Shown here: positions 32,327 through 57,159 of the stretch, in pieces | Layout: each line of letters opens with the position of its first letter | How positions within the stretch are numbered: the first letter of the stretch is position 1 | Position numbers and translations under genes: made by a program | Assembly: GCA_001247695.2 (NCBI GenBank) | Contig: LGRX02035281.1 | Location: 1 to 64,000 of the forward strand | Direction: 5' to 3' | DNA length: 64,000 bases | DNA from: Cymbomonas tetramitiformis | Taxonomy: Eukaryota; Chlorophyta; Pyramimonadophyceae; Pyramimonadales; Pyramimonadaceae | The notes under the pieces: generated by a model | Database searches by the model: none | The model's input: only the letters and a program-made list of their open reading frames with translations | Told to the model about the DNA's origin: nothing

Positions 32327-32398
32327 CTTCCGCGACTCAGATGGGATGGATTGACTGTTTTTTGTACTCACCCATATGGTGCACGATTCCTATAGTTT

Positions 32399-35362: not shown

Positions 35363-35509
35363 TTATGTGGCAATGATATCCTATGACACAACAACAAGTC
35401 CCAATTCAAGAACGAAAAATATGAATGAATGAGCAAAATAATCTTGATTATTATTGTTGTGAACATAACTTCATCATTATTATGCAACTTGCCCCCGGAT
35501 CATTTCATA

Positions 35510-35583
35510 CAACACACACACACACACATATATATACATATTATATCACTCTAAAAACACCATATATATAGAGTACTATATAT

Positions 35584-35614
<31 letters not shown>

Positions 35615-36606: not shown

Positions 36607-37271
36607 CCAAGCATACACAATTTAGTTTATGCAACCTACTACTATACAAATGTACATAGCAAATCCGAGCATGCCTAATTTAGACAAGTTGCTAAAGCCA
36701 CACAGCCTGCACACAAAGCCTGCACACACACACACCCACACACCCACACACAGCAATATGCATCCATTCATACACATGCCGCACAAGCATGTTCACACGC
36801 GCGTGCGCACGCGCGCACACACACACACAACACTGCACAAAAACAAAACAAGGTTGATTACTTAATTATTTTGCTGGGTTTTGATGAAGTCTAGAATCAC
36901 ATTGCCAACAAATATGGATAGAAAATTCTCCGGGGGCAAGTTGCCTAATAATGATGCAGTGATGTTCACAATGACAATTATGCCACAGCCTATACATGCA
37001 TGCATAGCAAATCCGAGCATGCGTAATATATGAAACATGCTAAAACCACACAGGCCGCACCACACATACACACATAGCAATATTTATCCATCCACGATAC
37101 AAATGCATGAGCGTGGTCACACACACACACACACGCGCACACGGCACACTTTTGGGAAAAAAAGAATTTTCATTATGGAGTTTCATTAGTCTTCCAGGGC
37201 CTGCTGTTTTAGCGGGTGCCTCTGTATTACACATTGTGATCTCTTACACACGGTGTGGCAGAGAGTATACA

Positions 37272-37305
<34 letters not shown>

Positions 37306-37383
37306 GTACTATATGTATATGGTGTTTTTAGAGTGATATAATATGTATATATATGTGTGTGTGTGTGTGTATGAAATGATCCG

Positions 37384-37848
37384 TGAAAGCCAAAAAAAAA
37401 AACGTCTCAGCGTCCGAAGGGCGCGAGCACTGGAAAAAATGTTTTTTCGCGCATATTGTTTATGATAATATTTTAGGTTTGAGTAGACGTTTTTCCTAGA
37501 ATTTTGTCGACCAGAAGGTATTTTTCGACCCCTGTTTTGCTTCTTATAGTGAAATATGGTGTCTTTTGCATCAAACCCTAAACCCTGCGGTATGATCTCG
37601 CTTTAGCTTGTATGATTTCTTGATATATGATATGAATTTTGAGTACCCAGCGACCTGAGTTTTTTACGAAGGTCCTGGGGAAAGAGTAACAAAACGCCTG
37701 GAGAAGCTGGAGAGCCTTGAGCTCTCCAGTGAGGAACCAAAACCATAAAGCACAACATTCCGCACAACTGAAGGAAAAAAGAAAAAACAACCTCAGAACT
37801 CTAACGCGCTTGGTTGTCGCGTTGTTGATAATCTCACACAGGAGAATT
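37384..37848 (+). other. 5' untranslated region of the non-LTR element
   Basis: Begins TGAAAGCC followed by an A run. A CCCTAAACCCT stretch is at about 37,575-37,585. No promoter motif is certain; non-LTR elements usually carry an internal promoter here. An open frame runs into ORF1 from 37,717 but has no ATG before 37,849. Confidence 0.5.
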
Positions 37849-40800
37849 ATGAGCGAAGAAGGAGCCACAGATATGGACGCGCACACCCAACCAGAAACCA
37901 TCCAGCAGAAATATGACTTTATGCGGAGTATGAACTCAGACGTGATTCGTGACAGTGATAAGTGGAGCGCTCAATTGGACCAGGACACAGTCTCGTCCCT
38001 CATTTATGCCACTTTCCTTGCGAAAGCAGACGCAGTCTTCGCAACTCGCAACATTCCAATAAACCATAAGCAGTTTTTCGGAAACATTCAAAGGCCATCC
38101 ACTATGTGCACCTTCCTGTGGAACATTTTCAGACACGCGATAAATATGTGTTCGGTGAAAGGAAACGAAGTTGTCATTGAGTCAGCAGCAGCAACCACAA
38201 ACGTTGAAAAGTTAATAAAGTACACCAGGAATACAGTTCAGAGGGAGAACATCAGAAACATTGTCGAAGCACTCCTGGAATTCGACTTGTATTTTCCCAC
38301 ACTGGCGTCAGTTCAGACACAAGTTGAGGAACGCATTGCGAAGCAGGCATCGGAGTTAACACAGCAGTCCCCCTCAGCCTCTGGATTAGCAGAAATCGAC
38401 CTGGGTGCACACGAGGGAGCACAAGCCGAAGGTGCTCAAAACGAGGCGGAGAAAGAGGAAGAGGACACTTGGGAAGAAAGAGAAGAAGCAGGTATAAAAT
38501 TAAACAGCCTCCCATTCTTAACCTGTTTAATCACAACTGCCGCATTGCAAAACGCAGTAACGAAAGCTCACGCACAGCATTTAGAGATAGCAAGCATTTC
38601 TTTTCTCATTCTTGCATTTCTAACAGCTGTGAACACAGGCGAGTACGACGGAATCGACGGGCTAACTGGACAACGAGAAGTGTCACTTGTCAACCACGAA
38701 GAGGAAGCTGAGTTCGACTTGGCATCTCTACAAACGGCAGTGGACTACTCTGAGACGGTGAAGAACGCCGAAACCGAAATCGAAGGCCACGAAGGTGACT
38801 TGGAGAACGAGGACTTTCTCCAGACACTGAAGATCACGAGACACAACGTCCAGAACATCGCGCGCTTCACTGGACGCGAGCTGAGTGAAGTCAGAAGGCA
38901 GTGCGAGGAGACCCTGACCAGGAAGCATCTCGACGTTGGCTCACTGGCAGTTGACGGTTTGTCGCGTAAGGTGGACGCATCGGGTGTCGCTAAGGTAAAA
39001 ACCGCCCTCTCACTTCACGTAAAAAAGCATTCTCATAACTACTGCTCTTGCATTAAGCGCCATTAGCCTTTCAAAACTTTCATTCCTATAAACATTACGA
39101 CAACGTGCATTCTAACTAGTGTAAAAACGCAGACTCCCTTCATCAAAGTTCAGCTAAAGAGCGAGGACGAAGCTGCCGCAATTCTCGAGCTGGGAATCCT
39201 TTTGGTGGACGGGCAGCGTTTCAACATCACTCCCAAATCTTCAAGACTAACTCGATTCAACCTGTTCCTGCGTGCTTCCGCTCCCAATCTCCAGGTCTCA
39301 ACGGAAAACATTGTCTCATTTCTGCTCACGACTCCATTTGCAAGCTTTGTAAAGCGGGTTGTCTTTCAACAGACATTCACAGAACAACCAGGCAAGGGCA
39401 GAGGATCACGGCTGGTCAGAAGGATCTACGCAGTACTCAGGCCCCCAGTTGCAGCAGCACCGGAACCGGCAGTACCGGACATTCAAAATCCGGAGCACGC
39501 AGTTTACTTCATTCCACTTCAGTACATCTACAACCCTGTTGGAGTTGTCCTGATTACCCAGTGCAGTGCCCACGAGTGTTTCAAGTGTGCCCCATCTCCC
39601 AAAAGGTTCGGTCATTGTTCCAAGAACTGTATGGACAGCGGGAAAGGGAAGGGAAAGGGGAAATGATCTGGTAAAGGAAAAGGATCAGGAGGAGGAGGCC
39701 CCCCAGGATTCCCACCAGGAGGCCCTCCAGGACCGCCGAGTACCCCCACAAAAAACTCAGCCAAGTGGGAAGCAGCAAAAGCTAAAGCATTAAAGAGAAA
39801 GCTCACCCCCTCATGGCTATTACCCGGAAGTACTGGTAATAGTACTTTCGACGCCGAAAGTACTGTCACAAGTACTTTCACGGCATAATTTTTTTCGGGG
39901 TCTTCCCATTATTGGGGGGGGCTGCCAATCATATCCCAGTCCCCTAAGGACCTAAACTGAGTTGTCTTATGCCCCATTGGTCGGCTTTCCACTTGTAGCC
40001 TTCTCAATGGATGCTAGAAGCCAAGGGGGTAGCATTTTTTGTTACATTCCATTGTTTTGTAGTTGCAAAGATAGTGCCCTCTCCTTTTGAATTTTTTGAA
40101 AGCACGCATTGGCCGATGAACAAGCTGGCGATCACTCAAATCATAACTATATATCGCATCTAATCATGTATGTGACAATAAATCTGATGACATGATGGCA
40201 TGTATGATAAGTTGCGGGTCAAACCCAGCCCTACAAGTGTGTTTAAACTAAGGGATCTTATGGTAGGATAGGGTACACAAGTAGCATGCCGTGGATTCTC
40301 CCAACGGGCACCCTTGTACCGAGTATCGCTCGGAGATGATTTGTAACGATGTTGTGGACTATGAGACCCATTTTTGGGACCCCGATCGATGTCTAAGGTG
40401 CATATTTGAGTTTTGAAGAGAGTTCAGAGCCTACAGACAGCGTACCAGTACGCATACACAAGTAGCATGCCGTGGATTCTCCCAACGGGAACCCTTGTAC
40501 CGAGTATCGCTCGGAGATGATTTGTAACGATGTTGTGGACTATGAGACCCATTTTTGGGACCCCGATCGATGTCTAAGGTGCATATTTGAGTTTCGAAGA
40601 GAGTTCAGAGCCTAGCAGACAACGTACCATTACGCATACACAAGTAGCATGCCGTGGATTCTCCCAACGGGCACCCTTGTACCGAGTATCGCTCGGAGAT
40701 GATTTGTAACGATGTTGTGGACTATGAGACCCATTTTTGGGACCCCGATCGATGTCTAAGGTGCATATTTGAGTTTCGAAGAGAGTTCAGAGCCTAGCAG

Positions 40801-42436
40801 ACAACGTACCAGTACGCATACACAAGTAGCATGCCGTGGATTCTCCCAACGGGAACCCTTGTACCGAGTATCGCTCGGAGATGATTTGTAACGATGTTGT
40901 GGACTATGAGACCCATTTTTGGGACCCCGATCGATGTCTAAGGTGCATATTTGAGTTTTGAAGAGAGTTCAGAGCCTAGCAGACAGCGTACCAGTACGCA
41001 TACACAAGTAGCATGCCGTGGATTCTCCCAACGGGCACCCTTGTACCGAGTATCGCTCGGAGATGATTTGTAACGATGTTGTGGACTATGAGACCCATTT
41101 TTGGGACCCCGATCGATGTCTAAGGTGCATATTTGAGTTTCGAAGAGAGTTCAGAGCCTAGCAGACAGCGTACCAGTACGCATACACAAGTAGCATGCCG
41201 TGGATTCTCCCAACGGGCACCCTTGTACCGAGTATCGCTCGGAGATGATTTGTAACGATGTTGTGGACTACGAGACCCATTTTTGGACCTTGATCGAAAC
41301 ACCATAGCAAGACCCTACTTTTATGTTATCTTACCAGAGTAACCACTGAGTGTGTAATATGTTAGGAATGTGCGCTGCTATCATTCTGAGTGGGAATATA
41401 GTGGCCTCTACGTGTTCACATTAGAGTTTAAGAAAGTCAAAATTAAAAAAAATCGTGCAGTTGGAGTAATTAGGCTCCAAAATTAATTTTCCTGAAATTA
41501 AATGTGGCAGTGTGTCTGGAAATCTATTGTTTAATAGTAGGGTTGATTCAAATCGGTTCGGCAAGCGGTGTAATACTAGTACGGTCATGCATTAATGTTA
41601 AGATCGATATATTTGATATATACATCACTTTATAACTCGCATGGATCGCAATATCGAGGCAGTTATGGCAATTTGGGTTTGGGTTTGAATGTGGCCAAAA
41701 TGGCATTATTGTGGAGTATGTGACCAGCATTCCGCTTGGGAGGAATGCCATAAATTGTGCAAGCTAAACATGGATCAAACCCCTCAACTCAAAGGACACT
41801 CATCTATGGCAGTATATCGAATTTTAGAAATGTTAACGAGCTCTATACATTCACATATGCGGTCACCATGCACCCACATATGACGTGCACCATATGGACG
41901 GTGACTATGGAAATCACGAATTTTTCTGTATTTGATGAGCGCGGCCCACATCACCACGTGTTTTGAGCCCCAACCTTTATCATAATAGCATGCAACGTAG
42001 CACACGTTCGAACAAGGTCCCAATAATGTTGGGCACCGCTTTACTCGACATCCTAGGCCCATTAACAGCACCTAACAACACATCTAGTCGAAAGTACTTG
42101 TGACAGTACTTTCAGAAATTAATTATTTTCTGGTTTTTCACACCCTAAAAGTATGCTATAAATATACCAACCTAAACTTGATAACGGCACGTGTGAGTCA
42201 TTTGGGAAATTAAAAAGGGTCGTAAATGAATTTTCAAAAATGTTAAACGACCCATATCACCAAGTATACCGGATATCACATAGTTTTAGCAAAGTACTTG
42301 TAATAGTACTTTCCCGCCGGGTAATAGCCACTCAGCTCTCAGCCCTGCTCACAAGATCCCCGCAGGAGGCAGCCAGAGACAACCCCTGACACAGGAAGGT
42401 GACGAAGGAATTAATCTTGCTGAAGGTAGATACTGA
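37849..42436 (+). CDS. retrotransposon ORF1, putatively spliced, split by a DNA transposon
   Basis: Start ATG at 37,849 (MSEEGATDMDAHTQPETIQQ). Proposed coding segments are 37,849-38,491, 38,627-38,994, 39,133-39,813 and 42,335-42,436. The first two joins are GT-AG introns, phase 1 and phase 0, each ending in a CTAAC-type branch site near the acceptor; the alternative acceptor at 38,638 also keeps frame. The third gap is an inserted transposon whose removal leaves the frame intact to TGA at 42,434. The protein is acidic in the middle. Exon 3 has a Cys/His motif (CFKCAPSPKRFGHCSKNC, CX2CX8HX4C) like an elongated zinc knuckle, then GKGKGK and a Gly/Pro-rich tail. An in-frame TGA at 39,664-39,666 interrupts the tail. 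It probably binds the element RNA. Confidence 0.6.
38492..38626 (+). other. putative intron 1 of ORF1 (135 bp)
   Basis: GTATAAAATT to TTCTAACAG. The length is a multiple of three and there is no stop in frame, so ORF1 stays open if it is retained. Its translation is hydrophobic and unlike the acidic exons around it. An alternative acceptor is ACACAG at 38,638. Confidence 0.5.
38995..39132 (+). other. putative intron 2 of ORF1 (138 bp)
   Basis: GTAAAAACC to AAAACGCAG, with CTAACTAG shortly before the end. It contains in-frame stops, and splicing joins phase 0 to phase 0 so that ORF1 continues as TPFIKVQLKSEDEAAAILEL. Confidence 0.6.
39814..42330. mobile_element. 2.5-kb DNA transposon nested in ORF1
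   Basis: The termini are TGGCTATTACCCGG and CCGGGTAATAGCCA, flanked by a 4-bp duplication CTCA (39,810-39,813 and 42,331-42,334). Subterminal AAAGTACTnnnACAAGTACTTT-type repeats occur at both ends (39,832-39,885; 42,093-42,117; 42,293-42,313). Taking it out restores the ORF1 reading frame for 33 further codons, which supports the borders. No transposase is present, so it is non-autonomous. Superfamily is uncertain; four-base duplications are known in several. Confidence 0.8.
40264..41295. repeat. ~182-bp satellite, about 5.7 units, inside the nested transposon
   Basis: ACACAAGTAGCATGCCGTGG recurs every ~182 bp from 40,275, followed in each unit by GTACCGAGTATCGCTCGGAG (with a CCGAG...CTCGG hairpin) and GACCCCGATCGATGTC. 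Units are nearly identical, so the array expanded recently. The last unit breaks off in GACCTTGATCG. Confidence 0.95.
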
Positions 42437-42507
42437 GAAATTGGTCTGCTTAATCCGTCTCTTCTCTCTGAACACTTTCTCAGACTTTGTGATCCCGGGC
42501 ATCTGAT

Positions 42508-43692
42508 ATGCAAGTGACCCACACTAGCATTCCTGCAACCAGAAGAGCCAATCTCTTCCTTGCTCTGCTCATTGTAACCCATCGGCCAGCAGTAAATTTA
42601 AGTATGCACAGCAAACATTTAAACCCCTGCTCTTGCTCTGCATTCTCTTTTATAACTGCTGTACACTCCCCACAGTTTGTCTCACCACACAATGCATATT
42701 TCTCTCAACTTCAAAAGCTCAGTCTAGAAGCAGAGCACGGACATATATATGGCCCAAAATTCACGCTCAAACTTGCATTATATAGTCACCTTCATCATAT
42801 GGACCCTTCTGTGAACGGCACACTGTCACTAAACAAATGCAAAGCACCCAACTGGCATAATAATAACCTGCCACTTGATAAACACTTATGCAGTGAATAC
42901 AGTTCCTCACATAGCTCACCTCCCGAGGCACCCGAACCAACAAACTTACAAGATAACCTGCACCGGTTACTCAACACTACAATATTAATAAATAACCACA
43001 CACGGTGCCTAGCTAACTTAAGAGGACGGGAAAACAAAGCAGGAAACACTACACAATATGCAGGTAACTTAACACGGCATACTGATAACTCAATGCATTA
43101 TACAGAAAGTTTGATAACATTTACACGGTGCTTAGAAAACAACATGCGGTCAACAAATAACACAAATAAACCCATATACTTTCCGAAGCGGTTTGTTGCT
43201 AACCTGAAGCGGGTCACGGCAAACTTAGCTTGGTGTTTAAACAACTTAGAACTGAATGCAATACACCGTAATAGTACTGATAAAATAATTTTACGAGAGG
43301 CTCGGGGGCACGAACACATGATTTTAGGGGAAAAGGCGGCTATAAGCACCAAAATAATGGGAAACCCTAACCTCTTGAGTCGATACCTAGTGAATATGGG
43401 ACGGGTAGAGGTGCGTAGGAGTAAAATTGGGCGAAAATATTTCACACAATGCTTATATATGACAATAAGGGATAGTAGGGAAAAAATAAAGGCAAACGGA
43501 CAACCTTGGACCGGAAGCGAATTGCATGAGGCACAATTCGTTAAAAATCGAAATTTTGCAAAAAAAGAGCCTAGAACCAAAAAATTTCCGGGAAGGGATC
43601 CGAGGACTTATACGAAGCCATGTGCGAAAGAGGAAGGCCCAAATAAACGATATGGTAGCCGAGGGGAGGCAACAGGTGGGTGTAACGCGTAA
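42508..43692 (+). CDS. retrotransposon ORF upstream of the protease, heptad-like repeats
   Basis: ATG at 42,508, 72 bp after the ORF1 stop. The first ~150 residues are of no known type. From about residue 170 there is a degenerate seven-residue pattern rich in Asn, Leu and aromatic or His positions (NLTRHTDNSMHYTESL, RFVANLKRVTANLAWCL), mirrored by 21-bp DNA periodicity at about 43,060-43,260, and suggesting a coiled coil. The C-terminus is basic. The next frame overlaps at 43,526 and continues the same kind of sequence, so these are probably pieces of one reading frame broken by a +1 shift between 43,526 and 43,692. Confidence 0.5.
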   Translation: MQVTHTSIPATRRANLFLALLIVTHRPAVNLSMHSKHLNPCSCSAFSFITAVHSPQFVSPHNAYFSQLQKLSLEAEHGHIYGPKFTLKLALYSHLHHMDPSVNGTLSLNKCKAPNWHNNNLPLDKHLCSEYSSSHSSPPEAPEPTNLQDNLHRLLNTTILINNHTRCLANLRGRENKAGNTTQYAGNLTRHTDNSMHYTESLITFTRCLENNMRSTNNTNKPIYFPKRFVANLKRVTANLAWCLNNLELNAIHRNSTDKIILREARGHEHMILGEKAAISTKIMGNPNLLSRYLVNMGRVEVRRSKIGRKYFTQCLYMTIRDSREKIKANGQPWTGSELHEAQFVKNRNFAKKEPRTKKFPGRDPRTYTKPCAKEEGPNKRYGSRGEATGGCNA

Positions 43693-44002
43693 CACGGAGA
43701 GCACAATAATGCTCAGAAGCCACGGAAATGGGGGAAGCAAGGTGCGCACTGGTCTTGCAAAAGACACACGGGATGCAGTCAAGCGGGCTACAGATAAACT
43801 AATACGGAGCTCGGAAATAATGCGGCGATACATTGCAAAACTAACGCGGTGGACGGAAAACTTAAAAAAGTATACTTTCAATCTGATATGGGCCGAAAAT
43901 AAATCAATACTTTCTGTCGGTAAAACTACAAATCACCCTGAGAACTTAAGACTGTACTTAGTAAACCCAGCACGGACCGAGACATATTTTAAATGGAGAT
44001 AA
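43526..44002 (+). CDS. retrotransposon ORF fragment continuing the heptad-like region
   Basis: Overlaps the previous frame and is basic at first (RSHVRKRKAQINDMVAEG), then returns to the seven-residue style (IAKLTRWTENLKKYTFNL, HPENLRLYLVNPARTETYF). It ends at TAA inside ATGGAGATAA, where the ATG is the start of the following frame. That overlap could be a real stop-restart junction or the scar of another frameshift. Confidence 0.45.
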   Translation: MRHNSLKIEILQKKSLEPKNFREGIRGLIRSHVRKRKAQINDMVAEGRQQVGVTRNTESTIMLRSHGNGGSKVRTGLAKDTRDAVKRATDKLIRSSEIMRRYIAKLTRWTENLKKYTFNLIWAENKSILSVGKTTNHPENLRLYLVNPARTETYFKWR

Positions 44003-46326
44003 TAATTGATAAAGACATAAGCGGCAGCATAATTATGACATATTACATAATGCGACACCTCTTGAGATGTGAGGAGAATATTAAGACACGAGCAGAACTG
44101 CAAAAGATCATCTACGGGCCCGCTATCATGCTTTTTCATTTAATGGCGGGACTTAGCAAAATGAAGTTGAACTCTAAACAATATTTTCCAGGGCCTAGAG
44201 TCATAATACACTTAGCTCACAAGAGACCTAAGGCATGCAAAAGGATCAGCAAGGGCGCCTTGAAATACATGATACAAAACCCCCAAATGGCATGGCTATG
44301 GGAGAGGGCACGGCCCCAAAATATAAAGAAATCTAAAATGAAATCACCCCTAAAAATAACGAAACGTAAAATCCACCGCAAGAAGGGCAATGACACCGAG
44401 CAACATAATATGCCTGAACCTGATCAGATGTTAAGCGGTGGTGCAAGCACCGAAGATAATGCAATAGATGGAAATAGGATGGCCACGGAATCACTGTACT
44501 CAGAAAAGGGGTGGTTAAATGCAACCCATGTCGGTGACGTAATGAAAATCCGGGACCCGAGTACCATTGCCCCCATGGACCTCACAGACATGATGCTAAA
44601 AATGACATTGGAGGATCAAAAATTCACACAACTCATTATTAGTAGACTCAAGAAATATGGCCACACACAAATAGGCGTGTGTGACAATATACACTGGCGC
44701 CTCATAATGATCCGCTTGTCATCACCTGGGAAAATAGAAGCTTACATATATGACCCCTTTGGAGATAGAGCCGAAAGAGAAACCATCAATACGATTGTGG
44801 TAGCACTCAGAACTTGGCTGGAAAATCTCATAGCCACCACAGAACATAAGGTATTCATAATTACCATTAGCAAAGATACATTTCAAACAGATACATACAA
44901 CTGTGGCACATGGGTAGCAAAAACTGCTTTCAGATGGGCCCAATGGAACAGAGGTTCCCACCAGACCTCATTTTTCGAGTACCTAAAGTATGATCTATGT
45001 AGCGGGGAGTATGGCGACAAAACAATGCAAAAAGAAATACATAAATACCGATTAGAAATCAGGAAAGAAATAGAGCAGCTGGACAAGAATATCCGCAACA
45101 CACTGGAGCTCAAAAACCTGGAGCCCAAAGGAAATGACGCGGTAACCAGCGGCCCAAATATGACTTCCCCCTCCCACCATATCCTCACACGGAGAGGTGC
45201 CACACCTAAAAAGCAGATAGAAACTCTGATAGAAACTTTCAGACTGGAATGGAAGACACACACCACTAATGAAACAATTGTTTCAGAAGCCATTGAATCA
45301 CATAGGAAATATCATCACACCTCGAATACGAATAACACCAACATTCAAATTCATCTCCTTGTGATAAATGAAATATGGTCAACTGCGGTCCACATAATTC
45401 CAGAAAGAAAGATTATTTATTGTGATTTTGATATTTCTACCAATAATCACCAGAAAGACATTTTCACACCTCTCCCAAAAGACCTAAGTGTGCACCGCAT
45501 AACCTTGAAACTGGGAGTACACCCGAACAACATGGGGGTTTTCAATTTTACACTAGCCCACAAAGCCTCCCACATCCTGCACAACACTAAATTCTTCTCG
45601 GCAGCACAACTAAACAGAGATCTACGATACGAACTTGAAAACCTAAACATTAGAATTCTTCCGCAAACGGGCAGAGAAGCTAGAATAACCAAACGCGAAA
45701 ACAACAAAGCCATCTCAACCATACGACAATCATTAAGATCTCACCTCCCGAAAATTGATGCACATCCTACAAAGCCAAATCCTGAAAACAAAGAGTGTAA
45801 ACCTAACTACACTGCTTATAATCACCTCATCTCAGGCAAAAGAAAACTTTCTAGCGCACACCACACACATGGATACCGCAGGAAACACTCTCATAAACAA
45901 AAGAGAATAATCCAAAAGACCAAATGCACAAACAAAATCTTTGATTGTGAAAACATTTATGACGCAGATGGCAGATGCATCTTACAAAAAGCAAAACACA
46001 AAAGCGTTAGTAAACAATCTGAAGAATTAGACCGACTTACAAAACTACAACTAGCACAACACTCTGGCAGTCTGATCATAATGGGTATGAATATGAGAGG
46101 CCTCCGACACCACAAAGAAGATAAAGACAGTTTGGTTAAATTAGAAACAATTTGCAATCTTTTAATTGACAAACGGGCCGATATAATTTGTATATCAGAA
46201 ACCAAAGTGAATACTGAAAACCTTGCATTAATTAAAACCCTAATGACACAAAAAGGAATCCAATTCCCCTATGATCTTATGGAACCCGAAAAGTTTACCA
46301 CTTTCCATCTTGGTTACCACAATTGA
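43993..46326 (+). CDS. Ulp1-type cysteine protease, degenerate second copy, and N-terminal AP endonuclease
   Basis: 777 codons. A basic region (to ~residue 140) is followed by a C48/Ulp1-type domain: GWLNATHVGDVM at ~172, His234 (NIHWRLIMI), Asp254 (YIYDPFGD), Gln298 and Cys304 (QTDTYNCGTWVAKTAFRW). A second segment at ~430-530 repeats the pattern (NEIWSTAVHIIPERKIIYCD, NNMGVFNFTLAHKA) but has Met514 where the Cys should be and no His, so it looks like a pseudoprotease. After a basic linker the AP endonuclease begins with Asn700 (MNMRGL) and Glu736 (ICISETKV). The frame then stops; the rest of the nuclease is in the +1 frame from about 46,271-46,326. In other mobile elements Ulp1-like proteases are thought to act on SUMO-like proteins or the element's own polyprotein. 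Confidence 0.75.
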   Translation: MEIIIDKDISGSIIMTYYIMRHLLRCEENIKTRAELQKIIYGPAIMLFHLMAGLSKMKLNSKQYFPGPRVIIHLAHKRPKACKRISKGALKYMIQNPQMAWLWERARPQNIKKSKMKSPLKITKRKIHRKKGNDTEQHNMPEPDQMLSGGASTEDNAIDGNRMATESLYSEKGWLNATHVGDVMKIRDPSTIAPMDLTDMMLKMTLEDQKFTQLIISRLKKYGHTQIGVCDNIHWRLIMIRLSSPGKIEAYIYDPFGDRAERETINTIVVALRTWLENLIATTEHKVFIITISKDTFQTDTYNCGTWVAKTAFRWAQWNRGSHQTSFFEYLKYDLCSGEYGDKTMQKEIHKYRLEIRKEIEQLDKNIRNTLELKNLEPKGNDAVTSGPNMTSPSHHILTRRGATPKKQIETLIETFRLEWKTHTTNETIVSEAIESHRKYHHTSNTNNTNIQIHLLVINEIWSTAVHIIPERKIIYCDFDISTNNHQKDIFTPLPKDLSVHRITLKLGVHPNNMGVFNFTLAHKASHILHNTKFFSAAQLNRDLRYELENLNIRILPQTGREARITKRENNKAISTIRQSLRSHLPKIDAHPTKPNPENKECKPNYTAYNHLISGKRKLSSAHHTHGYRRKHSHKQKRIIQKTKCTNKIFDCENIYDADGRCILQKAKHKSVSKQSEELDRLTKLQLAQHSGSLIIMGMNMRGLRHHKEDKDSLVKLETICNLLIDKRADIICISETKVNTENLALIKTLMTQKGIQFPYDLMEPEKFTTFHLGYHN

Positions 46327-48040
46327 TGGTGATGCAAAAAGGGCAGTAATGACAAAATTTTCAGGAAATAACGGTCTGGAGCTCTACATAGCCAGCGGTT
46401 ACATGAATGATACCACACTAGTAGATGAACAAAAGGAATTATATGACACACTCACTGACTGGGCAGGAAAGGCAGGAAATAATCCTAAAAAGGCCTACAT
46501 AGAGATAGGTGACAAAAACTGTACTATTACCCCAAATCAGCGGGTGGGTGGAAATTACATGTCATATCAAGAGCATGTCGAGAAGAATAAGCATCTTCTA
46601 ACTTATTTCAACAATGACAAATGTTCCCTCAATGAACTGATCATGGACCGAAACCCAAACACAGAAATTTTCACACATGTTATATCCAAAAACTCAAAAG
46701 CAAAGCTCACTCATATCATGGCAAACTCTACTATGGCAGAAATGACAGTTAAATCTGGATGGACGGAGGAAAACCCTTATATCATCTCCGACCACGGGAT
46801 AGTATGGGCTGAATTTAAGCTCCCTCAAAACGACACTAAACCTGAGATAACTTCATATGCAACTTTGCCAACACCTAGATTTAATGGTGCCAAGGAAACC
46901 ACACATGATGAGTACCCAGGTTACCCAATCAGAATGACAAACAAAAACACGGATACAAAAAGGAAAATAAACAAGAAAGATATTGTAGGTCTCCTTGAAG
47001 CAAACGGATACAGCACAAATGAACTTGTGCACGCGTGCATCAATAAAAACAAAGCAAGAGACGCTATCAGCACCATCAAGGGTGACACCACTGATCTTGA
47101 TCTTAAACGGGATAATACTGACGGCAGCCCCATAACAGTGAGCAAGCTCATAGCTAAAAATAAAGAGACAGACAACATAGAACAATGTTTAAAATGGCAC
47201 AACAAACCCAAGGAATGGTGGATTCACCTTAATAGCCCATGGCATGCAGCTCATTTACTCTCTAGAGGAAAGGGGATGCCAGAAGGTGGTCTCAACTTAG
47301 GCCATAACGACAAAGATAACATCTGGCATATAGGTTCGCCACACCTACTAAATAAGAAAGATGTAAATGCCTATCTCAAACGTCACCTTTCATTCAGCTC
47401 ACTGGAAGTTAAGAAAATCACGAAATCCAGCACAGATGATCACATGACCAGCTGGGATATTCTTCTACAACCCCATATGCCTGCTAAATTCTGGAACCTG
47501 TACGGATCTGAGATGCATTCGGAAAAAATAGACTGCACCACTCATTTATTCCAATACGCTACAGGCTGGGTGTCCTACACTGAGAGACTACATAGCACAC
47601 TTGAAATGGATAATGGATCGGAAGCAGCTAGAAACGGCGGCACTGGCCTCAAGGAAATGCACCCTGACGCGACATGGGATACCCTGCACAAATTGGCACA
47701 TCAGGCGGCAAGTGACGCCTTTGGCACCAAGAATCTTAACAAAACTGGGAGGTCAGAAAAACCATCAGCAGTATCTAACTATATATACAAATGGCTAAAC
47801 ACAGTACGCCGCACCATCAAATATTTGGATACAAGAACCCATGTTAGCAACATTCCGAAGCAAGCCAAAAAGGCTGCCCGCACACTACCGTTTGCCGCGC
47901 TCCAACCCAAACTCAATGAAGAAGCAGCCACATGGAGATTACGATTGCATGAAAATTATGTAATAATCAGAAATGCTTTTCAAAAAAGCAGAGACACCGA
48001 CATTGAACGACGCAAACTTCGAGAAAAAGAAGCCTTGTAG
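46271..48040 (+). CDS. AP endonuclease C-terminal half and RT-linker region
   Basis: This continues the nuclease after a +1 shift. It shows the metal-site IEIGDKNCT near 46,505-46,520, the late motif region with KLTHIMANSTM, and the terminal SDH motif (ISDHGIVWAEF, 46,781-46,810), the expected order of the exonuclease/endonuclease/phosphatase fold. The rest (to 48,040) is the poorly conserved linker before reverse transcriptase. The frame is closed by TAG at 48,038-48,040, but the next ORF is in the same frame, so only this codon separates them. Confidence 0.7.
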   Translation: MILWNPKSLPLSILVTTIDGDAKRAVMTKFSGNNGLELYIASGYMNDTTLVDEQKELYDTLTDWAGKAGNNPKKAYIEIGDKNCTITPNQRVGGNYMSYQEHVEKNKHLLTYFNNDKCSLNELIMDRNPNTEIFTHVISKNSKAKLTHIMANSTMAEMTVKSGWTEENPYIISDHGIVWAEFKLPQNDTKPEITSYATLPTPRFNGAKETTHDEYPGYPIRMTNKNTDTKRKINKKDIVGLLEANGYSTNELVHACINKNKARDAISTIKGDTTDLDLKRDNTDGSPITVSKLIAKNKETDNIEQCLKWHNKPKEWWIHLNSPWHAAHLLSRGKGMPEGGLNLGHNDKDNIWHIGSPHLLNKKDVNAYLKRHLSFSSLEVKKITKSSTDDHMTSWDILLQPHMPAKFWNLYGSEMHSEKIDCTTHLFQYATGWVSYTERLHSTLEMDNGSEAARNGGTGLKEMHPDATWDTLHKLAHQAASDAFGTKNLNKTGRSEKPSAVSNYIYKWLNTVRRTIKYLDTRTHVSNIPKQAKKAARTLPFAALQPKLNEEAATWRLRLHENYVIIRNAFQKSRDTDIERRKLREKEAL

Positions 48041-48082
48041 CATCTTTTCTCAACTAACCTTTCGAGGTTTCTAGACACAGTC

Positions 48083-51000
48083 ATGGGAAAGATGAAACCT
48101 ACTGAAAAAGGTGCAGCCGCTACCCCAGGTAGTGATGGAAAGATACCTGAGACAAAGACAGAAAGACTAAACACAACACTAGATGAATACAAAAATAAAA
48201 AATTATTTTCTACTAACCCGAATGAGCCAGATGAACTCCCACAGTGGCTCACTGACATTCTCAAGGATAGCCCTAAAATCCCCGATACGGCCGCCGCGAG
48301 ACTACTGACAGAAATCACGCACAAAGAACTTCAACAAGCATACTCGGACTGTGGTATCTCCACAGCACCAGGACCCTCAGGAATGAGATACTCGCAGTGG
48401 ATCAAGGGCCCAGAGAATTTTCAAGAAGTTACTGTCTCACTTTTTAACCACATTCTTATAACTGGGAGATTTCCTAAGAGTGCAAAATCTGCAGTCATCC
48501 TTCCAATCCCTAAAAACCCCTCTGCACCATGTACAATAGATAATTCCAGACCTCTCACAATGTTGGAAACGGGTCTTAAACTATTTAACACAATAATTGC
48601 TAACCGTCTCAAAACAATACTTAACACCCACCCCATTCTCTTTCCCATTCAAGATGCCTTTCTTCCGAATAAAAACATAGATGACTCACTCCAAATTTTG
48701 AATGAAGTAATATCGGATGCCAATAGATACGACAAAGACCTCCACGTAGTTTACCTGGACCTCAAACAAGCTTTTGACAGAGCTGAATTCTGGATGAGCA
48801 ATTTAGCGCTCAGAAAGTTAGGACTCCCATCACAAATAATTAACATCACCTCAGACATCACCGATGATGCCTCTAGAATGGTACTCACTGAAGAAGGCCT
48901 CACAGATGAATGGTCCCTCGAATGTGGAGTTCCTCAGGGAGAAGTTTTGAGCCCACTAAGGTTTGTAGCCATTATGGACATTCTGGCAATTTGGTTAGCA
49001 AAAAGAGCAAACGGTGTAAACCCGACAGGAACCACATATGGATATGAACTGAACTCTGAACGCCATAGACCAGACAAACCAGGAAATAATGTTATTCCTC
49101 CCTCCCAAAACCTATTAGAAAAGGACACCACTTTAAATATCTTTGCACGGTTCTTCTGTGATGACATCATTCTCGTGGGGAAAACTAAAGACGAAGTTCA
49201 AGACATGCTAGGTATAGTTAATGAATTTATGAGCTTCATCGGTATTCCCATCAATGTTAAGAAATCCAAATACTCTTACAGAAAGCGCATCAAACCTCAG
49301 GGCAAAACGGTAACGCGATATGACCTGTCCGATGATTTACTCATCTCAGGGGGTCATCTGGAGCCCAATACAAATGACTCAAGTCCTTCCATTGATTCGA
49401 AATGGATACCCCCTGAGTCACCAGAATTCCTCGATTTCTCCAACAGCAAAGAGGTAAACAGATATCTCGGAGTATGGTTTGCACTAAATGGGGAATGGGA
49501 CAAACAGGCGGAAATCCTTATCGACAGACTTAAATCTACCCTAATATCCATCCAACTGCAACACATGACTCTACACCAGCTAAGATATGTTATAAATGCG
49601 GTTGTAGTACCGAGGATGGCATACCCCCTTAAAGTTACCTCAGCAATTGCCAACTCCTCAAAGAATGTCGCAATTGAATTAGACAAAATGATAGCTTCGT
49701 TTATAATTAAATATTTGGGCTGCCCAGTTGACACCAATCACCAAATAATCTGGACAGCAGTATGCCAAGGCGGGTACGGTATTGATAGTGTCTTTGATAT
49801 TGTAACCGCGACGTGTATTACTGAAACTATGAACACCCTGTGTTCTGCAGATGAACACGAATATTGGCAACACAACCACACGGACCGTATCACTGATCCC
49901 CACCTCATCTCACTATATCGTAGAAACAGCAATTTATGGCTTAAAATAATAATTCAAAACATGAACAACGAAATGGGTAAAAATGCCATCTCGGGCTTCC
50001 CCTTATCACACTATGTAACCTACAGTCACACAAAAGACAAACGCTTTAACTGGTTTAGGCGTACAGGTCACATTATGGCAAAACTTGGATACGCTATCGA
50101 CTCTAAAAATTACCCTGAAAATGAAGCGGGTGAAACCACATTAATCACCACCCTTCCCAGACAACTCTACATGTCGAGGAATGTTACCTCCGCAATACAA
50201 AAATATAACCTCAAGCACACAGGTTCCTTTCTGACTCCCTGCGGTGGAATGTTAAAAAACTGGCAAGAAAGTAAAGGCTTTTTCAGGCTGAACGGTAATA
50301 GACCTCCTGGATGGCTAACCGAAATCGAAAAGGAAATGCTTCAAAACCCTGTAGATTTGGACCCACAGGCCAGATATGTCAAGAAACAATATAGAGACAA
50401 CACAGTACCCCCCGACACGGGTGAATTTCATTGGAAAGGAAATGGTGACCGAAATTCCATCTCTCTTATTCACATTACGAATATTGACTCAGAGGCCATG
50501 TCAATACAATATACAGAATACAGTAACAATGCCATAAACCCTAATGTCTTTGTCAGAATCGAAGGTACCAACAGTTTTAAATACGACTTTGAATATAGCA
50601 TCACCAATGACGGTTGCATCCTAATTCCAGCAGGTTCTATTTTCGAATATAATGACCATATGGACCCGCCCTCTTCTGTCCTTGCTACAGTCAGTGATAT
50701 TAACTCACACTATGATTACATCTCAGACAGACAGTATGAGACCATTATTGCCAGAATGAAAAACAAAACTGCGGAGGAAGAAAGTGAATACAGCTGCCCT
50801 AGCGACTCGGAAGAAGAATCCACCCCCAACGCCGAAAAGAGCAAACAAATGGAAGATTATGATATGGCAAGCGATGGTTCTCTATTTGCTGGAAAGAAAA
50901 CAGCATGCAGTGGTGCAGCATATGCCATAAAAAACTTTGACAACGGGATGCCACTTGTTCGGAAGATGAATATCCCCCCCTCAAGAACTTTCTCCGCATC

Positions 51001-53338
51001 GGGGCTTCTTATCAAGGAAGATATCCAAAACCCGAGTAGCACATCTGCTGAAATTGCGGGACTGCGATTTCTACTCACAGAACAAAAAGAGAAACTCCTC
51101 AAATCTATTACTCCAATGGTACATGCCATTGACTCCATGGCAGCAATATCTGCTGTAACAAAGGATGGCAGGTCCATGAGTGCTCGGGACAAATTACGTG
51201 AAGCTAATCGCAGAGATGTGCAGGCTGTTCGCCTACTGTTAGAAGAACTTGGTTTTTACAGTGAAGGAGACCACAGCAAAATCATCCTCAAATGGATTAG
51301 GGGTCACAATAATGACAAAGTCCATGACAGAGTGGACCGTACTGCTAAAAGAGCCTCATTCAGAGGGGGCTGTCTAGACATCTCCCGCTACGACCCTGCC
51401 GAGGAACTACCCTTCTCGTTATTCTTTTTTGAGGTCCCTATCTTAGGCGATATCCGTAGTCACATTAGAAGAATTCAACGTCTCTCACACTATCATAATT
51501 GGAGAACTCTACAGTCTCAAGGGAAGTACTTGAGAATGCTCAACGAGAATAACACCGCCCCCACTAAAGATATTTCCAAAATAACACCTAAAGCTTTCAC
51601 CGCTTCTAGAAGCAGAGAACTCCTGGGTCTCCAAGCCTCTCCAGCACGTTTATTTAAACTGGGGGAAATCGGGACTGAAAACTGCCCCTACTGCCAACAG
51701 AATACAAAATGCACCTTCGAACACATCCAACTTGAATGCTCAGGACATAATAATAGCTTGCATAGTCTTAGAACAACCCAAGATGGCGAACTAAGGAAAA
51801 TCATTGCTGAAGAAATCTCAGAAAAGCCCAAACTACTAAACCCTGGAAAAGGTACCACATACATCAAAACAGAGCCATCGAAACTTTTTCCACTTGCTGA
51901 CCTTAGACAGGAAATGAAGGAGGAATTACACTTACACGCTCTCCCGGAAGCTAGCATGTACCGACCATCAAGTTCAAAAAAGAATACCATTGCTGTGGCC
52001 GCTAAACCTGAAGTGGACCATGTCACGGGGACAATTAAATATCCCGAACTCCAATATGTCCAGAAGAAAGAGTTTTGGAAACTTTTGGCCTGGCACCGCC
52101 TTTCCAACAAAGCAGTTCCATGCTCACTTGCGGAGTACTCGAATAGGGCACACGATATTCACGAAGCACTCAATGCATGTAAGTTTGAATCGGGGGATCC
52201 TAAAAACTGCTACGCAATCAGAAGAAGCCTCTTAGATATTTTGGTGGATGACAGGAACCTTGACAAAAACGGCTGTGAACTTTTCTCCAACCCACTAAAT
52301 GCCCACCCTAGAATTCACTCGAGAAGATGCATACCCACCACAAGAATTAAGAAAGCTCTCAGGCCCTTCTGCCATCATGGGAAAATTGGCTTTGATGGTC
52401 TCGCTTGGGATGCCTACGTGGATCCGATAACAGGCATCGGCAGAATCGTTTATGGAAATCCCCCCTTTGATGGGAAAGAAAAGGGCAAATCATCGGCGGT
52501 TATGACTACCTTGGAAATGGGACATAAAGCGGCCAACACCGTCCCCGGATTTTCAGGAACATGGATTCTTCCGCTGTCTCCCAAAAACCAAAAGAGATGG
52601 TTCGACAAAGGTTTTAAACTTGTTTTCAGATTCCCGCATAACACTATTCCATTTATCCCACATGTATATTGGACGGGTGATGACCCCTACGTTCTCCCAG
52701 GTGGTGGATGCTATAAGGATGACTTTTCGGATGTTGTTATCATAGCTATAGACAGTGCACCCAGTGATACTCAACCAGTCTTTGACTGGAGGCCTACACA
52801 GAAAAAGATTGCCAGATGGTTCCTCAACGTTCTTCCTAAGTCCAGAGTCACGAAGAAGAGGCTAGAATACACAGGAGTCAGCTCTGATATTTGGGATGAA
52901 GTTCTGAACGAAAGAGACGAAGTACTTCCTTCTTCGCTTTGCCCATGGCCCACTCAAGACCCTCCTTATCATCAGAGTGATATTGAGCCTTATTATGGTG
53001 GTCACCACGACACGACAATCACCAACGCAAATTCCAAGCCCTTCATAAACACCGTTAAATGGCCCAAAGTTCTCACACTCATGGGATACCTCCCTCCTCT
53101 TTTTGGTACTGTCCTCAACACGATAGGTGTTCCCCGTGGCAAGATTAAACCTCTTCTCAAAAAACTATTAAGACTTTGCAGGCAACACACCAAAAATAGG
53201 CGAGACGTGTTTCTGTTAAACACCACCACCACCTTAAACACTGACCCGCATACAGTTGACATCTCGAGAAGTGAAGCCATGACAGAAACAGAAGCTGTGC
53301 AACAATCAAACGACTTTCTTCAAACCCTCCTGCAATAA
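48083..53338 (+). CDS. reverse transcriptase-RNase H-CCHC-methyltransferase-like polyprotein
   Basis: 1751 codons from ATG at 48,083. The RT has APGPSGMRYSQW (~95-106), motif A YLDLKQAFD (224-232), motif B GVPQGEVLSPL (282-292) and motif C FFCDDIIL (357-364; Cys where Ala is usual), then a LINE-type thumb. RNase H has Asp931 (ASDGSLF), Glu990 (AEIAGL), Asp1017 (IDSMAAI) and Asp1085 (VDRTAKRA), a complete set. A CX2CX9HX4C finger is at 1201-1219. The last ~450 residues include FSNPLNAHPRIHSRRC, then VYGNPPFDGK with NPPF at 1459-1462, followed by WILPLSPKNQKRWFDKGF and FDWRP. NPPF plus this context resembles amino-methyltransferases, including PCIF1-type RNA adenine methylases. The N-terminus probably continues from the preceding ORF. 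Confidence 0.85.
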   Translation: MGKMKPTEKGAAATPGSDGKIPETKTERLNTTLDEYKNKKLFSTNPNEPDELPQWLTDILKDSPKIPDTAAARLLTEITHKELQQAYSDCGISTAPGPSGMRYSQWIKGPENFQEVTVSLFNHILITGRFPKSAKSAVILPIPKNPSAPCTIDNSRPLTMLETGLKLFNTIIANRLKTILNTHPILFPIQDAFLPNKNIDDSLQILNEVISDANRYDKDLHVVYLDLKQAFDRAEFWMSNLALRKLGLPSQIINITSDITDDASRMVLTEEGLTDEWSLECGVPQGEVLSPLRFVAIMDILAIWLAKRANGVNPTGTTYGYELNSERHRPDKPGNNVIPPSQNLLEKDTTLNIFARFFCDDIILVGKTKDEVQDMLGIVNEFMSFIGIPINVKKSKYSYRKRIKPQGKTVTRYDLSDDLLISGGHLEPNTNDSSPSIDSKWIPPESPEFLDFSNSKEVNRYLGVWFALNGEWDKQAEILIDRLKSTLISIQLQHMTLHQLRYVINAVVVPRMAYPLKVTSAIANSSKNVAIELDKMIASFIIKYLGCPVDTNHQIIWTAVCQGGYGIDSVFDIVTATCITETMNTLCSADEHEYWQHNHTDRITDPHLISLYRRNSNLWLKIIIQNMNNEMGKNAISGFPLSHYVTYSHTKDKRFNWFRRTGHIMAKLGYAIDSKNYPENEAGETTLITTLPRQLYMSRNVTSAIQKYNLKHTGSFLTPCGGMLKNWQESKGFFRLNGNRPPGWLTEIEKEMLQNPVDLDPQARYVKKQYRDNTVPPDTGEFHWKGNGDRNSISLIHITNIDSEAMSIQYTEYSNNAINPNVFVRIEGTNSFKYDFEYSITNDGCILIPAGSIFEYNDHMDPPSSVLATVSDINSHYDYISDRQYETIIARMKNKTAEEESEYSCPSDSEEESTPNAEKSKQMEDYDMASDGSLFAGKKTACSGAAYAIKNFDNGMPLVRKMNIPPSRTFSASGLLIKEDIQNPSSTSAEIAGLRFLLTEQKEKLLKSITPMVHAIDSMAAISAVTKDGRSMSARDKLREANRRDVQAVRLLLEELGFYSEGDHSKIILKWIRGHNNDKVHDRVDRTAKRASFRGGCLDISRYDPAEELPFSLFFFEVPILGDIRSHIRRIQRLSHYHNWRTLQSQGKYLRMLNENNTAPTKDISKITPKAFTASRSRELLGLQASPARLFKLGEIGTENCPYCQQNTKCTFEHIQLECSGHNNSLHSLRTTQDGELRKIIAEEISEKPKLLNPGKGTTYIKTEPSKLFPLADLRQEMKEELHLHALPEASMYRPSSSKKNTIAVAAKPEVDHVTGTIKYPELQYVQKKEFWKLLAWHRLSNKAVPCSLAEYSNRAHDIHEALNACKFESGDPKNCYAIRRSLLDILVDDRNLDKNGCELFSNPLNAHPRIHSRRCIPTTRIKKALRPFCHHGKIGFDGLAWDAYVDPITGIGRIVYGNPPFDGKEKGKSSAVMTTLEMGHKAANTVPGFSGTWILPLSPKNQKRWFDKGFKLVFRFPHNTIPFIPHVYWTGDDPYVLPGGGCYKDDFSDVVIIAIDSAPSDTQPVFDWRPTQKKIARWFLNVLPKSRVTKKRLEYTGVSSDIWDEVLNERDEVLPSSLCPWPTQDPPYHQSDIEPYYGGHHDTTITNANSKPFINTVKWPKVLTLMGYLPPLFGTVLNTIGVPRGKIKPLLKKLLRLCRQHTKNRRDVFLLNTTTTLNTDPHTVDISRSEAMTETEAVQQSNDFLQTLLQ

Positions 53339-53745
53339 TTCTCAAAAAATTTGCAATAAAAGATGGTCCCGTGTCCCCAAGGGGAGGGTAGCCCCCCTCC
53401 CCTCCCCACCACCTCCCCCTCTCCCCCGCCCACCCTGACCCCTTCCTCAACGTCTCCAAAAACCCCCTTAATTCTCCGACTTCTCTCCCCACCGCCCAGA
53501 TTCAGCCACCCCTCCACTCACCCGGCCATGGCTGCTTCTCCATCTTCTAGAGTTTTTTGCCTAGCACTTAGCTTTTTCTCTAGATGTCACCCTGCTGAAA
53601 AGTGGGTTGAGCCCCTTTGTGGGCGCGCTATAGCAGAGGGAGTAGCCCCTGGTGTTTTCACTAGCCTGCTTTGCAGGGATACCGCACTCTCAGGACTTTG
53701 TCCCCTTTGCTAGCGTAAATGTTTTTTATTATTATTATTATTATT
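53339..53745 (+). other. 3' untranslated region and (ATT)n tail of the non-LTR element
   Basis: A C-rich stretch (53,375-53,460) is followed by ordinary sequence and then ATTATTATT repeats from about 53,728 to 53,745. Many AP-endonuclease LINEs end in short microsatellite tails rather than poly(A). The tail abuts the ATGATCCG duplication directly. Confidence 0.8.
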
Positions 53746-53800
53746 ATGATCCGGGGGCAAGTTGCATAATAATGATGAAGTTATGTTCACAACAATAATA

Positions 53801-56800
53801 GGAAAAAAGGTTATCGAGGAATAGATAAGTGCATAATGGGGAATATAAATTCCGTCCTGTTTTTGGGGAATAGAGTATATATGTCACATGACATCGAGCC
53901 ATGCCATTTATCGTTTCGGAGGTACAAGCGCAAGCGGTTCAGCGTGTGCAATATTTTGCGTCTGGCACACCCCCTTCTTCTAAACAATTTTTTGCATGTA
54001 GCATGAAGCATAATTTTTTCCACCATTCGATTCTAAAGCGTTTGTATTCATTAGGTGAATACCTTTCGTTTGAGCTATCGATTGGCCCCATCCGCAACCG
54101 CATCAGCTTAGCCTTCGCGACTGCAAGCTAAGTTGGTGCGGTGTGAGATGGTTTCAACCACTTGCGGCTTTGCATAATAGGGGTTTTCGTGAGAATCTTC
54201 TCACGAAACTTGGCAGTGATATTATTCATATCAATATCAGTGCACCCTCAAGAGCATATGGCAAGCCGTTGAGTATATTAAAGACGGCCGCGTGCTGGCA
54301 TGATGCCTTTTGGGTTTGAAACCCAAACCCAAACATGCCAAACAGCGAAGGGCTTCCCGTGAGTTCCAGCGCACGTAACTTTGCAAAATATATTGATAAG
54401 ATGCATATATTTTACTTTCCTGAAGTGCAAGTTTTGCGATAGCTTGTGCGCGAAGTTAACATATTATTTCTTTGACCCAGATTTATGAGTTTGTATATCA
54501 CGCTAAAATCTGTGTCAAAGAAATAGTAATACCATTTTGCGCACAGACTTTCTTAGACCTTGTGCTTCGAATATATCAAAGATAAATATCTTGGCAATAT
54601 TTCTACGCAGTTACGTGCGCTAGAACGCACGGGAAGCCCTTCGCTGTTTAGCATGTATTGGGTTTGGAAACATTCGAACCCAAGCCCAATAGATCTGCCA
54701 AAGAAATAAATTGATGGTTTTGCCAACAAGTTATCTCAAACCTTGAGCTTCTGAGAACTGAAAGATATGTGTCTTCTAAATATGTGTGCATAGTTTCGCG
54801 CGCTATAACGCACGGGAATTGCTTTTCAGTTTGGCATGTATTGGGTTTGGGTAAACTCGAACACAAACCCAATAAATCTCCAAAGAAATAAATTGATGGC
54901 TTCGTGCACAAGGCTTTTGAGGCCTTAGGCCTTTGGCAACTAAAAGATATATATCTTAGTGATACTTTTGCAAAGTAACGTGCGCTGGAACTCACGGGAA
55001 GCCCTTTGCTGTTTGGCATGTTTGGGTTTGGGTTTGCATGTACCCAAACCCATTATGTGTAGCACGCGTTTTGCGCATAGCTCACATCAGAGGTTGTGCG
55101 TTTGAGGGTGCACCAATATTGCTGTTAGCAATATTGGTGCCAAGTATCGTGCGCTAGAACGCACGAGAACCCCTCCGCTGTTTGAGTTTTGATGCGATGT
55201 GCATGAAAGTTATAAGGGCCTCTCAGCTGAGCTGATGCGGCCACGGATCGGCTCAGTCAAGAGCTCAAAAAACTCCTACCTAAGAGTCTAAATGATATAT
55301 CTATGTGCATTACGAACGTTGGAAAATGTTTTCCCAATCTAATTTACTCGCAAACAGTGTGGGGTATACATACGTGCAGTGAAATATTCACGGCCGTGAA
55401 TTTAATATTCACGGCCGTGAAATTAATATTAACGGCCGTGAATTCCAGATTCGGGAGGGCGTAAACCGTACAGTACGTTTATGTGAGAACTGAAGTCGGC
55501 TTGGTTGCAAAGACCTGTATGGTATTTTCTCCAGGTATTTTCAGACGTGTTCCCAAAGTGACCAAAAACCGAACGATCGGCGATCGAACGGTTTTTGGTC
55601 ACTTTGGGAGTGAGATCGTGAGTTTAGGCTTGGTGACAACACGCGAGACAACAGCAGCACTGAGTATTTTCAGACGTGTTCCCAAAGTGACCAAAAACCG
55701 AACGATCGCCGATCGAACGGTTTTTGGTCACTTTGGGAGTGAGATCGTGAGTTTCTAAGGCTTGGTGACAACACGCGAGACAACACTAAGTATTACAGTC
55801 TGAAAATACTTGGAGAAAATACTCACTGTCTGATTTGTTAAATATGCAATTTTAACTAAAGGCGGAAGGCTTTCTCTCCGGGAGTGTGCCCTGTCCAGCG
55901 AAATAAAGATCTCTAAGATTGTATTAATCTGAGTAATCTTTTGCTTCAAAATATTATCACATATTCCTACTTAGTATGATGTGGGTACCCGTTTCGCAAA
56001 GAAGATGAAAACCCATAGCGCAACTATTGCGGGTTTCAAATTCCTTAAATTCCACCCGCTTCCGCCAAATGAACGCGTCATCCCACAACGAGATGTGTGG
56101 TTGACCGTTCAGTTTGTGCAATTTGTTTAGGGAAAACAACGCATACGAAATACTATTTTTGCTAACGCTTCCCTCATCCGTTGCCCAGGCTCTCTTGCAA
56201 ACGAGCGCGCGAATGAGGGAAGAAACGCCTAGCGGAAACGTGGACGCGGTTGACATCCGCGTTTCCGCTAGAGGTGAAATTGCATTGCCAAACGGCCAAT
56301 ATGTGTTTATTATGCTTATATGATATGCGTGATATGTTCATGCTGTGCAAGATGCGTCCCTGTTGGGCGTGAGTCGAGTTGGCTGGCTCGAATCACGCCC
56401 ATGATTACCCCCCTCACAAGAACCGTCAAGCATCCTAGATTCCGAACGGATCTTGCTTCCAACCCTTTCTAATTTGAGCAGAATTGCCTGCACACTCGGT
56501 ATCGTGGTCAGGAACTCGCGTAGAATTACGTATCTGGTTCACTGAAAGCCCCGTATCTGGTTCAACGAAAGCCACGTATCTGGTTCAACGAAAGCCCTGT
56601 ATCTAGTTCAATGAAAGCCCCGTACCTGGTTCAACGAAAGCCCCGTATCTGGTTCAATGAAAGCCCCGTAATCTTGCTTGCGCAAACAAAGTTGTTCCTA
56701 ACACTTATTATGTAGTCAACTGTACAAGGGAACCGTGGAAAGCAAGGGCAACACACCTTTCATTTTTGATGGAGAATCTTTTACCCTGTCCTCTTTCTTG

Positions 56801-57064
56801 AATAGAGGACAATAAAATGCATACCATCCGTGTGTTCAACAGTACAACGATACCCGCCGTTGTCGCAAGAAAGGCACACCCTAGTGTACTTTTTCGGAGG
56901 CTTCCTCATGTTTGCAATACCCAAGTGAACAGATGGGTGGGGGGGGATAATTCAAACGGTGATATTAGACGCATGTTCATGTGTCACAAACTTATTCCCC
57001 AAAAACAGGTCGGAATTTCTATTCCCCATTATGCACTTTTCTATTCCTAAATCATTATGCTACC
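53801..57064. mobile_element. Mutator-like non-autonomous element, copy B (3264 bp)
   Basis: It is flanked by a perfect 9-bp duplication ACAATAATA (53,792-53,800 and 57,065-57,073); the left arm has the empty site at 35,450-35,458. It is colinear with 16,284-19,686, with an extra ~70 bp near the left end (AGCCATGCCATTTATCG) and one hairpin fewer at 55,552-55,740. Terminal repeats are as in copy A but more diverged (ATAGATAAGTGCATAATGGG). It is inserted in the right arm only 47 bp from the end of the non-LTR element. Confidence 0.9.
56536..56670. repeat. ~23-bp minisatellite inside Mutator-like copy B
   Basis: CGTATCTGGTTCAACGAAAG repeats about six times with small changes. Copy A has about four units at 19,160-19,280, so the number varies between copies. 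Confidence 0.85.
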
Positions 57065-57159
57065 ACAATAATAATCAAGATCATTTTGCTCATTCATTCA
57101 TATTTTTCGTTCTTGAATTGGGACTTGTTGTTGTGTCATAGGATATCATTGCCACATAA

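Follow-up and report, generated by a model that had tools for sequence, protein, structure and literature searches.

Dualen elements carry a cysteine protease besides an AP-type endonuclease (APE), a restriction-like endonuclease (RLE), a reverse transcriptase (RT) and an RNase H. The pairing of APE with RLE, and the RNase H, are described in the accessible part of one account of Dualen (PMC4640811). According to partly available sources, the nematode LINEs NeSL and Utopia-1_TSP have an N-terminal Ulp1-like protease; their sole endonuclease is an RLE. Retroelements with DNA methyltransferases are also known: the available excerpts describe SymbioLINE-Dnmt of Symbiodinium, whose C5 enzyme is encoded by an ORF that precedes the RT, and Dam-like adenine enzymes in DIRS elements. 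The accessible text of one survey places PCIF1/CAPAM, the cap-adjacent m6Am methyltransferase, already in the last common eukaryotic ancestor and gives it no prokaryotic homologues.

Here, we describe a non-LTR retrotransposon copy from Cymbomonas tetramitiformis that resembles Dualen/RandI in uniting an APE-type endonuclease, RT, RNase H and cysteine protease in a single element, but has no recognised RLE and ends in a PCIF1-like methyltransferase domain. It shares the N-terminal Ulp1-like protease with NeSL and Utopia-1_TSP, but its endonuclease is APE-like and lies upstream of the RT, an RNase H follows the RT, and the methyltransferase is present. A captured methyltransferase is common to this element, SymbioLINE-Dnmt and DIRS; unlike the C5 and Dam-like enzymes, as far as those are described in the same excerpts, the domain reported here has a predicted PCIF1-like, NPPF N6-type fold inside the RT polyprotein. 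It differs from PCIF1/CAPAM in being part of a retrotransposon polyprotein and in that no WW domain was found in Pfam scans of the window ORFs. We consider it likely that the locus is a broken copy of a large, recently amplified LINE family with a gag-like ORF1 and an ORF2 polyprotein of ~3,100 aa that includes a PCIF1/CAPAM-like methyltransferase of predicted activity.

Ends and target site of the element

The window is the whole stretch analysed, the first 64,000 nucleotides of contig LGRX02035281.1. Its features are as follows.

35449-35611, minus strand: empty (pre-integration) site, located in an inverted paralogue by alignment to the joined flanks
37376-37383: 5′ copy of the 8-bp target-site duplication, ATGATCCG
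37384-53745, plus strand: the element
37384-37848, plus strand: 5′ end and 5′ UTR; in 37 of 39 other scored copies, matches start within the A-run 37392-37402
37849-39666, plus strand: gag-like ORF1; zinc knuckle CFKCAPSPKRFGHCSKNC 39577-39630; stops interrupt the frame in the window copy
39814-42330: nested transposon in the end of ORF1, terminal inverted repeat (TIR) TGGCTATTACCCGG, 182-bp tandem repeats inside
42493-44002, plus strand: ORF1-ORF2 interval, in which overlapping frames contain Asn-rich repeats
43993-53338, plus strand: ORF2 polyprotein, a single frame in another copy
44494-45160, plus strand: Ulp1-like (C48) protease; HWRL 44692-44703, QTDTYNCG 44884-44907
46072-46849, plus strand: divergent AP-endonuclease-like domain; MGMNMRG, ISETK, GDKN, SDHG
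48041-49780, plus strand: non-LTR reverse transcriptase; FCDD 49154-49165
50840-51400, plus strand: RNase H; SDGS 50870-50881
51683-51739, plus strand: CCHC zinc finger, CPYCQQNTKCTFEHIQLEC
51902-52861, plus strand: predicted PCIF1/CAPAM-like N6-adenosine methyltransferase domain; ELFSNPLN 52277-52300, NPPF 52457-52468
52862-53335, plus strand: ORF2 C-terminal tail, part of which is helical in a model of low confidence
53339-53727, plus strand: 3′ UTR
53728-53745, plus strand: (ATT)n tail; 3′ end identical in 30 of 30 loci read, window copy counted
53746-53753: 3′ copy of the target-site duplication, ATGATCCG

The 8-bp duplication and the (ATT)n tail that a preliminary description of this DNA had claimed were both found at these positions. 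When joined, the flanks aligned across the junction to the empty site with 95% identity over 163 bp and a single ATGATCCG. The same description had placed this site in the opposite palindrome arm; the site with a single ATGATCCG exists, but it belongs to a short inverted repeat (arms 35512-35614 and 37268-37370), 1.8 kb upstream of the element, rather than to the far arm of the large inverted repeat 32371-35468 / 57055-60176. The arms of that large repeat are 97.7% identical and lie on either side of the element; they may represent a genuine palindrome or two transposons forming a pair. When the element was compared with the window, no long terminal repeats emerged, only the internal 182-bp tandem repeats.

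Domain order and collinearity of the polyprotein

The order in ORF2 is Ulp1-like protease, AP-type endonuclease, RT, RNase H, CCHC finger, PCIF1/CAPAM-like methyltransferase (as named from its modelled fold) and C-terminal tail. In the window copy the frame is broken twice, by a disruption in the endonuclease (near 46.25 kb) and by a stop before the RT (48038-48040). In contig C10169 (locus L052), a single frame of 3,095 aa or more covers everything from a point ahead of the Ulp1 motif down to the C-terminal tail; the open frame there measures 3,133 aa. A second contig, C25475, has the 5′ end at 44,785, then ORF1 with its zinc knuckle, then the protease with a frame break inside; 14 kb on lies a stretch 98.9% identical to window positions 50226-51325, which extend from the thumb region into RNase H. 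Among the pieces taken to link the ends, L054 matched and L053 fell in an insertion of C25475's own; L055, a piece of contig C20108 where the 3′ part was expected, gave no match. The C25475 copy (L056) contains two insertions, of ~1.2 and ~1.3 kb, that are not in the window copy.

Individual domains were identified by profile searches and motifs. On a chosen fragment of 107 aa, Peptidase_C48 scored 21.1 bits, above its cut-off of 20.7, with no match for the whole ORF or a 269-aa piece; the His..Gln..Cys order of the Ulp1 (C48) family is present. The AP endonuclease gave E 0.22 in the window's own fragment, and 1.6e-4 and 2.5e-4, just below cut-off, in the database relatives P0002 and P0003, which are collinear with the window over 46072-53128 and 46259-52519, respectively. 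At 46703-46717 the window copy and L052 read KLTHI and P0002-P0004 read KLDHI, placing Thr for the acidic Asp. RNase_H matched with E 0.0012, below cut-off, and its motifs were repeated in the relatives. A Cymbomonas protein of the family, P0023, is 63% identical to the window copy. Domain searches, motifs and collinear copies thus support the assignment, already made in the preliminary description, of protease, AP endonuclease, RT, RNase H, CCHC finger and NPPF domain to one non-LTR retrotransposon. An assembly or nesting artefact joining unrelated elements might be suspected of a copy that holds a nested transposon and adjoins an inverted repeat, but we regard it as extremely improbable: it is refuted by the single open frame in C10169, the order kept in C25475 and the same order in database proteins.

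The RT matched RVT_1 with E 1.8e-21, and its PDB matches ranged from 6.5e-23 for R2 proteins to 9.9e-16, with L1 ORF2p at ~1e-16 (1.4e-16). P0002-P0005 are 36-38% identical to the window over the RT region. In a tree of 18 RT sequences, built without Repbase references, they formed a clade with the window (support 0.999) to which P0006, a LINE protein of a JGI contig, was sister (support 0.981); P0006 differs from the element in that no NPPF was seen when its sequence was read by eye. We asked whether the element is a derived member of a known LINE clade such as Dualen/RandI, in which APE, RT, RNase H and cysteine protease were kept and the RLE was replaced by the methyltransferase. The shared domain set and an RT closer to R2 than to L1 in the PDB speak for such a derivation; against it, the window ORFs gave no RLE match in scans of general Pfam families, and there is little room between the CCHC finger and the methyltransferase. 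We consider this derivation less likely.

Copies in the genome and selection

The accessible part of a genome report (PMC10675990) gives C. tetramitiformis 914.3 Mb in 35,945 scaffolds, 51.4% GC and 4.2% LINEs; our searches covered 851.7 Mb in 25,745 contigs. A 375-residue C-terminal query returned 5,011 first-look candidates, of which only the 109 scored, window included, are proven copies. These matched residues 1-375 (1-374 in one) at 96-100% identity, and 106 of 109 had no internal stop. We then read 30 loci, the window and 29 others, the best-scoring of the 109, so their intactness is biased upward, the pN/pS ratio less so.

All 30 loci end in AAATGTTT followed by a variable ATT tail, slightly altered in L023. 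Their flanks differ, save those of L024 and L036, which have a common 3′ flank on different contigs and may be one insertion assembled twice, as alleles or through duplication. Four loci (L025, L032, L040 and L046) are 5′-truncated between element bases 14575 and 14807, and a fifth truncated copy, in contig C2521, starts at 11628 and has an 8-bp duplication, TGGATTCT. Target duplications were also seen at L046 (8 bp) and L040 (~10 bp, TGACGATTCA, read by eye from the flanks), and a script found none at L025 and L032. Insertions, gaps or further pieces mark L031, L045, L048 and L051; L031, a candidate truncated copy, has an insertion instead. At the 5′ end, a query with the first 800 element bases gave 183 candidates, 40 of them scored; all 39 besides the window start at query base 9-21, 37 within the A-run and two just after. 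The element therefore displays the LINE traits of a constant 3′ end, 5′ truncation and target duplications without terminal repeats.

Had other copies ended at different points, protease and RT might have belonged to separate elements, as the preliminary description allowed. Both ends are instead common to the family, so the protease and RT parts lie inside the element; the single frame from protease to methyltransferase in C10169 and the same order in C25475 rule out separate elements.

Coding parts of the family are under purifying selection. Between the window and C10169, uncorrected pN/pS was 0.26 in the protease, 0.21 in the following linker, 0.13 and 0.06 in the endonuclease parts, 0.08 in both RT and RNase H, and 0.17 in the methyltransferase. 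Against C2521 it was 0.13 overall, 0.14 in the methyltransferase and 0.46 in the C-terminal tail (10 changes). The comparison with C25475, which involves few changes, gave 0.46 in ORF1 (13 changes), 0.10 in its second part and 0.38 in the N-terminus with the protease (10 changes).

RT matches in the genome amounted to 15,831 first-look candidates; most of the 150 scored were ~480 bases long and unlike the element (L001-L008).

A PCIF1-like methyltransferase domain

The domain that the preliminary description had left as NPPF is, by its modelled fold, PCIF1/CAPAM-like. A first model was poor (pLDDT 62, pTM 0.53). Models matched the fold of the PCIF1 catalytic region, over 216-239 residues in the better model and at 10-17% identity in structural alignments, and ranked PCIF1 ahead of DNA enzymes. 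An NPPF loop and an E-x-F-[AS]-x-P-L-N motif are shared with PCIF1.

Profile and sequence searches gave no significant match to PCIF1. A PDB profile search had no PCIF1 among its matches, and a PDB search with the window C-terminus yielded nothing at E 1. hhalign against an 80-residue PCIF1 core gave 0.38%, below the best shuffles. Pfam PCIF1_WW appeared at E 0.061 in one of six and at E 0.025 in one of five fragments, and in none of seven full proteins; the best hit, of 14.6 bits, fell under the cut-off of 31.1.

An alternative is that the domain acts on DNA, as an N6-adenine enzyme with a Dam-like role, marking new cDNA or target DNA, as suggested for DIRS. The DNA methyltransferases of DIRS and of Symbiodinium LINE-like elements, as excerpted above, lend this some weight. 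According to partly available sources, PCIF1 is not the only RNA adenine enzyme with an NPPF/Y motif, and the substrate therefore cannot be told from this motif by itself. The models rank DNA enzymes behind PCIF1, and we judge a DNA N6-adenine enzyme unlikely. As for the C5 type of SymbioLINE-Dnmt, Pfam scans of the window ORFs found no such family. A phage-type Dam origin was rejected on the same fold ranking and on a tblastn search without a match in phages, and six peptide patterns found no relative in viral and prokaryotic collections.

Could the PCIF1-like domain be catalytically dead, or merely an RNA-binding module? Its activity is predicted and its sequence similarity to PCIF1 is low, but ELFSNPLN and NPPF were present in 30 of 30 loci, the best-scoring copies, where pN/pS over all pairs was 0.18 in the domain core and one of 30 carried a frame-disrupting indel. 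NPPF or NPPY is also retained in five aligned relatives, though the motif is spoiled (GKPPF) in the database relative P0018. Loss of catalysis is thus quite improbable, and we favor a PCIF1-like domain with putative activity.

Proposed mechanism

In the model that we propose, the endonuclease would nick the target and the RT would prime there on RNA ending in (ATT)n; such target-primed reverse transcription, to which the anatomy of the copies points, would leave short duplications and 5′ truncations. The protease may trim the polyprotein or strip SUMO-like tags. The methyltransferase would methylate adenosine at N6; its likeliest substrate is the cap-adjacent A of the element's own mRNA, and the mark could protect or favor the element RNA. 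We infer this cap self-marking from the fold, from selection acting on the active-site motifs and from the A-run that the copies share at their 5′ end; an A at +1 would be consistent with this end, where the A-run precedes CGTCTCAG. According to the accessible part of PMC8324889, RNA m6A reportedly favors LINE-1 retrotransposition in human cells, which makes a benefit of the cap mark plausible, though the mark is a different one.

We tentatively suggest that a whole LINE clade encodes, within the RT polyprotein, a cap-adjacent N6-adenosine methyltransferase of its own. Each particle might then mark its mRNA at the 5′ A ahead of copying, and this may be the first retrotransposon to contain an epitranscriptomic cap writer. 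Among the titles and abstract openings listed by searches of open-access literature, none described the fusion of RT, RNase H, APE and an Ulp1-like protease with a PCIF1-like enzyme of the RNA-cap type. If active, the enzyme would tie cap methylation directly to retrotransposition, offer a natural system for testing what m6Am does for RNA and provide an outgroup for the origin of PCIF1.

Nested transposon and surrounding sequence

The nested transposon is bounded by the TIRs TGGCTATTACCCGG and CCGGGTAATAGCCA, with CTCA on either side. Its empty site is preserved in the 98% identical copy in C25475 (L056), where element base 2430 joins 4945. Since this copy lacks the nested transposon at exactly that place, the basic length of the element is ~13.85 kb, in agreement with the ~13.8 kb claimed earlier. 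The region between ORF1 and ORF2 (42493-44002) is retained in C25475 and only ~30% alike in C10169. Rfam had no family at gathering score in 37000-54000. Elsewhere in the window, positions 16475-17712 repeat, at 98.5% identity, sequence within 53754-55253, immediately downstream of the element.
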